Part shown: positions 29,606 to 31,133 of the stretch, one piece after another | How positions within the stretch are numbered: the stretch's first letter is position 1 | Layout of the letters: the number at the start of each line of letters is the position of its first letter | Virus record (IMG/VR): IMGVR_UViG_3300046534_000742 | Location: 1-33,934 of that record | DNA length: 33,934 bases | From: a virus | Reading direction: 5' to 3' (one strand) | Translations under genes and position numbers: made by a program | Notes under the pieces: model-generated | Database searches by the model: none | Told to the model about the DNA's origin: nothing | The model's input: only the letters and a program-made list of their open reading frames with translations

Positions 29606-30030
29606 GTGACGTAATGCTTCACGGCATCTTAAATATGCCACCAGGGATTTGGGATAATAGCGATATACATAAGGCCCAAAGGCATGACGCATACAAACAG
29701 GCTAGTAAGCGTATTAAAGAGCTTGAGATTAGGCTTCAGATTGACACCTTAAACCCTAACAGGCGTGAACATATAGTTCAGCAAGACGCTAAGATTGCAG
29801 AACTTGAACAAAAGTTATCAAGCGTTGTTGCTGGTTTATTTAGTGAGAATGACTTAGCAATACGTGACCTAGAGCAGCAGGCGAGAGGGATTGAAGATTT
29901 AATTCTTGAAGAAACAAGTGTCGGACGGTTACACAGTGGAGATAAAAGATCTTTTATATTTTGCCAAGACGCAAAAAATCGCATTCTTAATTTGCAAAAT
30001 TACGTTAAAGCACTAAAGGATCAAGGCTAA
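29602..30030 (+). CDS. Coiled-coil hypothetical protein
   Basis: 142 residues from GTG 29602. SDVMLHGILNMPPGIW, then long coiled coil from about residue 30 to 100 (KQASKRIKELEIRLQ, QQDAKIAELEQKL) and a short C-terminal helix. No family recognised. Confidence 0.55.
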   Translation: MSDVMLHGILNMPPGIWDNSDIHKAQRHDAYKQASKRIKELEIRLQIDTLNPNRREHIVQQDAKIAELEQKLSSVVAGLFSENDLAIRDLEQQARGIEDLILEETSVGRLHSGDKRSFIFCQDAKNRILNLQNYVKALKDQG

Positions 30031-30374
30031 TGACTGATGAGTCAGAGCTACAGCGAACAATTAAACAAAATAAATGTTTGCATCAGTTCTTTGACAATCT
30101 AGCCGAAGCATTGAACGACAGCGGGTACAGTGTTCAGGAAGCTATCACACTGCCCATTAGCCACACGCCAGAGAACGTGAAGACCAACATAGGCCATAGG
30201 TTTATGATGGCTCTGTACCCGCAACTAGAACGTGAAGATGGAACTTACAGCACAGCAGATCTAAACACTAAGCAGATTAAATTTTTATACGAAAATATCA
30301 ACAATGCAATGTCGGTTAAGTTTGGCATAGGATTAGCATGGCCGGATAGGTTTAACGGCGGCAAGTGTAAATAA
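30030..30374 (+). CDS. Conserved phage nin-region-like protein
   Basis: 114 residues. TIKQNKCLHQFFDNLAEALNDSG followed by TPENVKTNIGHRFMMALYP and a TKQIKFLYENINNAM helix is a pattern seen in small phage proteins of nin-like regions. One-base overlap with the upstream gene. Role unknown. Confidence 0.55.
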   Translation: MTDESELQRTIKQNKCLHQFFDNLAEALNDSGYSVQEAITLPISHTPENVKTNIGHRFMMALYPQLEREDGTYSTADLNTKQIKFLYENINNAMSVKFGIGLAWPDRFNGGKCK

Positions 30375-30423: not shown

Positions 30424-30455
30424 GTTTATATCAACTAACGCAACGGGAAAAGAAA

Positions 30456-30572
30456 ATGTTAACAGTAAAACAGTATGGCCGGTTCGCCCTCGCAGCAATC
30501 AATCCAGAGGCTAACGGTGGAAATGAAAAGTACATTCACATTATTGGTAATATTTATTTCCAGATCAATTAA
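30456..30572 (+). CDS. Very small protein behind a regulated promoter
   Basis: 38 residues, MLTVKQYGRFALAAINPEAN at the start and ending FQIN. It follows the shared ATCAACTAAC leader with an AACGGGAA RBS. Nothing recognised. A terminator follows within 20 bases, so this is a self-contained unit. Confidence 0.5.
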   Translation: MLTVKQYGRFALAAINPEANGGNEKYIHIIGNIYFQIN

Positions 30573-30611: not shown

Positions 30612-30616
30612 GGGGT

Positions 30617-30666
30617 ATCAACTAACGAAAGAGGAATTAGATAAAATGTTTAATAATGGGCTGTGA
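30617..30666 (+). repeat. Fourth copy of the shared leader, ending in a 6-codon remnant ORF
   Basis: ATCAACTAAC (30617-30626) and an AAAGAGGA RBS lead to ATG 30646, but the frame ends after six codons, inside the 5' end of the tRNA-like RNA. Related leaders precede 26906, 27228 and 30456. The RNA gene seems to sit where a coding start used to be. Confidence 0.5.
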
Positions 30667-30794
30667 AGGTTTCTATATAAACTGGATGTACTAGCGAGTG
30701 GGTTCCCGGGTCATAAGTTAGCATCAATAGCAAGTTAGTACCTTGTGATGCAAAAAGGTTTATATGCAGGGTTCGATCCCCTGACAGTCCACCA
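30658..30794 (+). ncRNA. tRNA-like RNA with pseudoknot (mini-tmRNA-like), 137 nt
   Basis: Acceptor GGGCTGT (30658-30664) pairs with ACAGTCC (30784-30790), giving a G3-U70 wobble, discriminator A and encoded CCA. T arm CAGGG-TTCGATC-CCCTG (30767-30783). The D region GAAGGTTTC (30665-30673) is a minimal stem with GG. A helix of 8 WC plus 2 wobble pairs (30674-30683 with 30757-30766) abuts the T arm in place of an anticodon arm. Inside, GTACTAGC (30688-30695) pairs with GTTAGTAC (30734-30741), which is the loop of a GCATCA/TGATGC hairpin (30721-30726, 30746-30751), a pseudoknot. G3-U70 and A73 are alanine identity elements. The layout resembles the tRNA-like domain of tmRNA but is far shorter. 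Confidence 0.75.
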
Positions 30795-30816
30795 TTAAAA
30801 ACTTTATCAAGAATTT

Positions 30817-30903
30817 GGACTAGCCTTAAGGAGCAGGCCAGATGGGAGCCATCCCCTCAAGGTGGTAAATTAGTCCGGTCGAGTGGCTAGAGCCATAGAC
30901 CGG
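30817..30903 (+). ncRNA. Second structured RNA segment, cloverleaf-like
   Basis: GGACTA (30817-30822) pairs with TAGTCC (30871-30876) around hairpins GCCT/AGGC, GATGG-GAG-CCATC and CC-TCAA-GG. A 3' hairpin CCGGTC/GACCGG (30875-30880, 30898-30903) with inner TGGC/GCCA competes for the two shared C bases. It lies between the tRNA-like RNA and the Lar-like gene, so it may be a separate small RNA or a leader switch. No CCA end. Confidence 0.5.
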
Positions 30904-30929
30904 CATTATTTAATAGAGGAAGGATTGTT

Positions 30930-31133
30930 ATGAGTGAATTAAAACCATGCCCTTTTTGCGGAGGCGAAGCCAAAGAGACGCAGACAGGCAAAAACTATGT
31001 GATAGTCAGATGCATGTCTTTACATTGTGGAGTTCGCCCCAGTGCCGTTTGCTACAAAGACAAAGATGATTCAGCCTATGACTTTTGGGCTTGGAATTTA
31101 CGGCCACGACAAATTAACCCGGTAGAGGAATGA
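30930..31133 (+). CDS. Lar-like restriction alleviation/zinc-ribbon protein
   Basis: 67 residues. ELKPCPFCGGEAKETQTG, CMSLHCGVRP and AYDFWAWNLRP are the Lar family pattern; cysteines CPFC and C-x5-C form a zinc ribbon. Lar-type proteins soften type I restriction in lambdoid phages; for this one the role is by family only. RBS GAGGAAGG. Confidence 0.8.
   Translation: MSELKPCPFCGGEAKETQTGKNYVIVRCMSLHCGVRPSAVCYKDKDDSAYDFWAWNLRPRQINPVEE

Follow-up and report, generated by a model that had tools for sequence, protein, structure and literature searches.

We found that a phage genome encodes a 137-nt tRNA-like RNA that is probably a divergent mini-tmRNA, one that we do not file as an RF00023 tmRNA. 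The window, by which we mean the whole stretch of DNA analysed, is an entire virus record of 33,934 bases, and from its gene content (terminase, portal, major capsid protein, tape measure, YqaJ recombinase, repressor, primosomal protein, HNH nuclease, NinG and holin) it is a lambda-like tailed phage. The closest relatives of its terminase in bacterial genomes belong to gammaproteobacterial MAGs (73% and 66%), and the phage host is probably a gammaproteobacterium. The RNA gene sits in a non-coding gap of ~360 nt within a co-directional operon, with a short reading frame on one side, which stops near 30571, and on the other a Lar-like gene that lies at 30930; no intrinsic terminator or promoter above background was detected at the gene. 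We found no relatives of the neighbouring protein (30030-30374) among viral contigs, or of NinG among genome contigs.

Two features of the surroundings were seen in passing. Near-duplicate TATCAACTAACG...GGAA segments lie at 30429-30449 and 30616-30636, each followed by an ATG; at the second ATG (30646) begins a frame of 6 codons, which extends into the acceptor stem. Downstream of the RNA gene, a second possibly structured stretch (30816-30905), for which Rfam gave no match, contains a strong hairpin, CCGGUC...GACCGG, at 30870-30905.

Anatomy of the RNA and specificity of its fold

An earlier note, based on reading the sequence, had placed at 30658-30794 an acceptor stem with G3-U70 and A73-CCA, a perfect T arm, a D-like element and a long helix against the T arm, and each of these parts lies where it was claimed to be (Table 1). 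All seven pairs of the alanine-type acceptor form, with ACCA (30791-30794) directly after the 3' strand; the T arm pairs at five of five positions; and GGUUUC (30668-30673) follows GAA, where a D arm would stand. The order is thus GGGCUGU-GAA-GGUUUCUA-P2 ... P2'-CAGGG-UUCGAUC-CCCUG-ACAGUCC-ACCA. The P2-like helix is 8-10 bp long, and because its 3' strand adjoins the T arm the RNA has no variable loop, as the note had also held. Beyond P2 lies a structured loop of ~75 nt, which in a mini-tmRNA would replace the tag-coding part.

Table 1. Features of the mini-tmRNA-like RNA gene (window positions)
Feature	Position	Strand	Basis
Whole mini-tmRNA-like RNA gene, 137 nt	30658..30794	+	R1 match with exactly these ends, 34.5 bits; descriptor
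Acceptor stem 5' strand GGGCUGU, G3 = 30660	30658..30664	+	7/7 pairs with 30784-30790
GAA linker and D-loop core GGUUUCUA (family consensus GGUUUCGA)	30665..30675	+	Alignment to R1 consensus
P2 helix 5' strand AUAUAAACU	30675..30683	+	Pairs with 30757-30765
Possible pseudoknot stem S1, 5' strand GUACUAGC	30688..30695	+	Partner 30734-30741; modest support
Possible pseudoknot stem S2, 5' strand GCAUCA	30721..30726	+	Partner 30746-30751; modest support
Possible pseudoknot stem S1, 3' strand GUUAGUAC	30734..30741	+	Modest support
Possible pseudoknot stem S2, 3' strand UGAUGC	30746..30751	+	Modest support
P2 helix 3' strand GGUUUAUAU	30757..30765	+	Pairs with 30675-30683
T arm CAGGG-UUCGAUC-CCCUG	30767..30783	+	5/5 pairs, canonical T loop
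Acceptor 3' strand ACAGUCC (U70 = 30788), discriminator A73, encoded CCA	30784..30794	+	Sequence reading, R1 alignment

A chance origin of this fold is excluded. With the 3' half held fixed and the 200 nt upstream shuffled (n = 60,000), an acceptor stem together with GGWTTC at the right spacing arose in 8 shuffles, and no shuffle combined acceptor stem and D element with a P2 of 7 bp or longer; the full descriptor, which includes GGG, U70 and A73, had no match across 13.6 Mb of shuffled window. The total folding energy of the RNA is ordinary (z of -1.1), so the case for it rests on the specific arrangement of its parts.

The internal pseudoknot that the earlier note had included in the fold fared less well. 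Its two stems are able to pair, and the summed stacking of S1 and S2 beats most shuffles (as good in 14 of 500 and 14 of 300 in two runs), but this margin is modest, and a nested alternative fold competes with the knot. The connecting loop L3 would have only 4 nt, and a comparison of the other phage mini-tmRNAs of 106-140 nt did not support a pseudoknot common to them. The predicted knot is therefore possible but weakly supported, and we do not regard it as established.

Existing models and searches pass over the locus. ARAGORN called no tRNA or tmRNA gene in the window, and Rfam gave no match to the RNA at gathering thresholds. The tmRNA model RF00023 failed to match even at relaxed thresholds, and the tRNA model RF00005 at E<=10, a cloverleaf with an anticodon arm being absent. 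The permuted tmRNA model RF04321 scored 8.6-10 bits against a gathering threshold of 47, covering the T arm and 3' end only. The exact 3' 38 nt occur in none of the viral contigs, and BLASTN of the region against phages returned chance and tRNA-like matches only. No close homologue was found, leaving a single known copy, and for that reason the helices of the window RNA cannot be examined by covariation within a close family.

A family of phage mini-tmRNAs

RNAs of the same plan were found by motif scans of IMG/VR followed by pairing checks. The search patterns specified the D motif, U70 and the T loop; acceptor and T-stem pairing served as filters in the first pairing check, and P2 and G3 were forced neither there nor in the scans leading up to it. 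These RNAs, 63-140 nt long, consist of an acceptor stem with G3-U70, 3-6 nt, GGWUUCGA, P2, a GAC-type linker, the T arm and UCC-A-CCA. A stricter filter that required P2 kept 98 elements in IMG/VR phage contigs (loci L085-L240), 68 of them distinct and most 60-90 nt long. In 22 family RNAs, in whose choice P2 played no part, 91% of P2 cells are paired and each of the six P2 pairs has changed on both sides; covariation is strong, with an overall score, P2 included, of 0.751 against 0.149 in shuffles. Of the 51 other records, 45 have a mini-tmRNA that RF00023 matches end to end (positions 1-374) with a score over its cut-off, at the coordinates of the minis themselves, and none of these matches is a full-length tmRNA. 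Gene neighbourhoods revealed no shared partner, with neighbours recurring only within phage groups.

Among the other records, two copies lie in cultured Streptomyces phages, LuckySocke (OR725497.1:17977-18057, the same as L329 791-871) and BRock (KX925554.1:97140-97220, minus strand, the same as L335), and the feature tables list no tmRNA at either site. The Streptomyces phages GiJojo, pSt2308 and Alone3 have similar matches, known by BLAST alone. Several other named phages first picked by BLAST proved to carry permuted or full tmRNAs or a tRNA-Ala, and are hence not counted as minis. In three loci (L093, L101 and L107) the last ~35 nt of the pattern match resemble the enterobacterial ssrA 3' end; these are probably attachment-site remnants and were left out of the family. 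By eye, we also noted a candidate mini-tmRNA near L333 770-845 (Aeromonas phage MQM1), which has A1-U72, G3-U70 and a discriminator G73 and lies within a tRNA cluster. Four minis of 138-140 nt (L085 1623-1762, L095, L105 and L109) have AGCAAATACGG in common, with a possible tag frame after it, which by eye reads ANTAGLTE* in L085/L095 and ANTVGMFK* in L105, both lacking an ALAA-like end.

We compared the window RNA with this family through R1, a covariance model built from 22 other phage minis with the window sequence excluded. Given a short stretch, R1 returned exactly the ends in Table 1 and kept 18 of 18 pairs, with acceptor, P2 and T pairs all standard. Over the whole window with filters off it gave a partial match (30700-30794, 18.7 bits), probably because the maximum hit length of the model is below 137 nt. 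With the same model, tRNAs from two host-like MAGs reach as much as 31 bits, so 34.5 bits alone is no proof, and it is the arrangement that separates the window RNA from tRNAs. Those R1 matches in the host-like MAGs that we checked were tRNAs, and one match falls within the host's own tmRNA gene.

The sequence of the window RNA is its own in P2, and its acceptor pairs 4-7 (CG, UA, GC, UA) differ on both sides from the commonest family pairs, each pair type also occurring within the family. It departs from the family further in a U for G in GGUUUCGA, so that the GA of GGWUUCGA reads UA in the R1 alignment behind a GGUUUC at its expected place, and in a shortened P2-to-T linker without GAC. Given the missing GA of GGUUUCGA and GAC linker, the RNA could be degenerate. 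The view that it resembles a miniature tmRNA, not an intron-bearing tRNA, is well supported, in that R1 recognises it where the Rfam tRNA model fails to, and this view is backed by the 63-140 nt phage RNAs of the same plan that the Rfam tmRNA model matches.

Possible function and competing explanations

A tmRNA owes its charging with alanine to G3-U70; together with SmpB and EF-Tu it enters stalled ribosomes, and it provides the message for a tag. In the window RNA, inspection found only short candidate tag frames, located inside predicted stems. The reading that we favour, to which we give about even credence, is that this is the gene of a divergent mini-tmRNA, apparently without a tag, that damps trans-translation as a competitor of host tmRNA. 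After transcription and trimming, the RNA would receive alanine from the host enzyme and be bound by EF-Tu and by host SmpB, which would have to serve because none of the 52 records (the 51 others and the window) contains an SmpB gene. With no usable tag frame it could not complete trans-translation, so it would most likely compete with host tmRNA for SmpB and stalled ribosomes during infection; the loop beyond P2 could, speculatively, add stability or a further contact. That it acts as a decoy, whether its target is SmpB, EF-Tu or stalled ribosomes, is argued by analogy and seems to us plausible at slightly less than even confidence. Phage lambda-immP22 depends on host trans-translation (PMC2862035), so blocking the process is not obviously good for every phage.

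The RNA might instead be a functional minimal tmRNA that rescues ribosomes with a very short tag, read for example from GCA-UCA-AUA-GCA-AGU-UAG or GCA-AGU-UAG in the loop. Tags of 2 aa do exist in some bacterial tmRNAs (PMC11915505), and the similar-sized minis L085/L095 and L105 share the possible frame after AGCAAATACGG; we nonetheless consider this unlikely, as frames of such length are expected by chance and those of the window fall within predicted stems, the 63-90 nt minis have little or no room for a tag, and no tag is conserved across the 106-140 nt members. We likewise give a low probability to a decaying tmRNA or tRNA relic without function: the departures of the D loop and P2/T linker from the family consensus, the failure of RF00023 to match and the single known copy all speak for decay, but in a compact phage genome the loss of pairs would be expected, whereas all 18 model pairs are intact, CCA is encoded and the T loop is canonical.

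The position of the RNA in the non-coding gap of a co-directional operon would suit a tRNA-like processing signal, a substrate of RNase P or tRNase at which a late transcript is cut with no role in translation. G3-U70, A73, GGUUUC and P2 are not needed for cutting, however, and the same features recur in sister RNAs of unrelated contexts, which makes this explanation quite improbable. Phages often integrate at the 3' ends of tRNA or tmRNA genes, and L093, L101 and L107 look like ssrA attachment remnants, so the locus could in principle be an attachment site copied from the 3' end of such a host gene. We think this very improbable, because besides the 3' half there are a 5' acceptor strand, a D element and P2, a combination absent from all 60,000 shuffles. 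With up to 2 mismatches allowed, the 28-nt 3' half occurs in none of 274 genomes from the class to which the nearest MAG, and presumably the host, belongs; with up to 3 allowed, its 26-nt part is missing from both of the nearest MAGs; and the 3' half is unlike ssrA of one nearest MAG. The case against an attachment site is strong, and not final in that the genomes compared, the nearest MAGs and their class, may not include the true host.

Relation to known tmRNAs

A short tmRNA is not without precedent, as the earlier note had taken it to be: the tmRNA of mycobacteriophage DS6A is TLD-only, and in E. coli a similar molecule is a strong inhibitor of tmRNA whether or not it can be charged, perhaps because it titrates SmpB (PMC4131195, PMC11915505). 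DS6A and the window both encode a phage tRNA-like domain of tmRNA that has no tag message, or in the window apparently none; compared by description, the window RNA differs in its ~75-nt structured loop beyond P2, its departing D loop and its probably gammaproteobacterial host. With phage minis such as L175, L171, L235, L085, L088, LuckySocke and BRock it shares G3-U70, a D element GGWUUC that starts 3-6 nt beyond the acceptor, P2 directly next to the T arm and, as in most of them, an encoded CCA, but most minis keep GGUUUCGAC and the GAC linker and pass RF00023, and the window RNA does none of these. Standard bacterial tmRNA (ssrA, RF00023) likewise has a tRNA-like domain and P2, but measures ~350 nt against 137, and the window RNA has no convincing tag frame and no run of four pseudoknots. 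A tRNA-like domain with no tag message, as the window RNA apparently has, is also found in the CDS-less tmRNAs of mitochondria and Mallomonadaceae plastids, but these are organellar, and the mitochondrial ones are mostly permuted (PMC11915505). tRNA-Ala has the same G3-U70, A73, T arm and CCA; the window RNA differs from it in having no anticodon arm, D stem or variable loop, and it goes unseen by ARAGORN and the Rfam tRNA model.

When mRNA is cut by phages or defence nucleases, stalled ribosomes become common, and trans-translation serves to clear them. A phage-encoded RNA that copied only the tRNA half of tmRNA would amount to an RNA-based takeover of this pathway. We tentatively suggest that many unrelated phages carry tagless mini-tmRNAs of 63-140 nt, ARAGORN-overlooked decoys that would switch off host trans-translation, and that the window variant adds a structured, possibly pseudoknotted domain. 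DS6A supplied one such RNA, described as a curiosity, and the present survey points to ~68 distinct sequences in phage contigs, a breadth that is of more interest than the window RNA itself; the unannotated copies in cultured Streptomyces phages make the idea directly testable in laboratory strains.

The TLD-only kind was already known from DS6A, and as a class in phages mini-tmRNAs have apparently been overlooked: a search of freely accessible journal papers turned up no account of a broad class of them. Phage tmRNAs of full length are well known, occurring in ~2% of phage genomes by ARAGORN (PMC9004378), and the 2025 tmRNA database holds 79 phage sequences and, over all sources, 9 standard-form tmRNAs without a tag frame. 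ARAGORN missed nearly all minis tested, and at L175 5905-6228, where the mini measures 83 nt, its call is a tmRNA of 324 nt whose tag is odd; this is probably an over-extended annotation, and phage tmRNA counts in databases may be affected.
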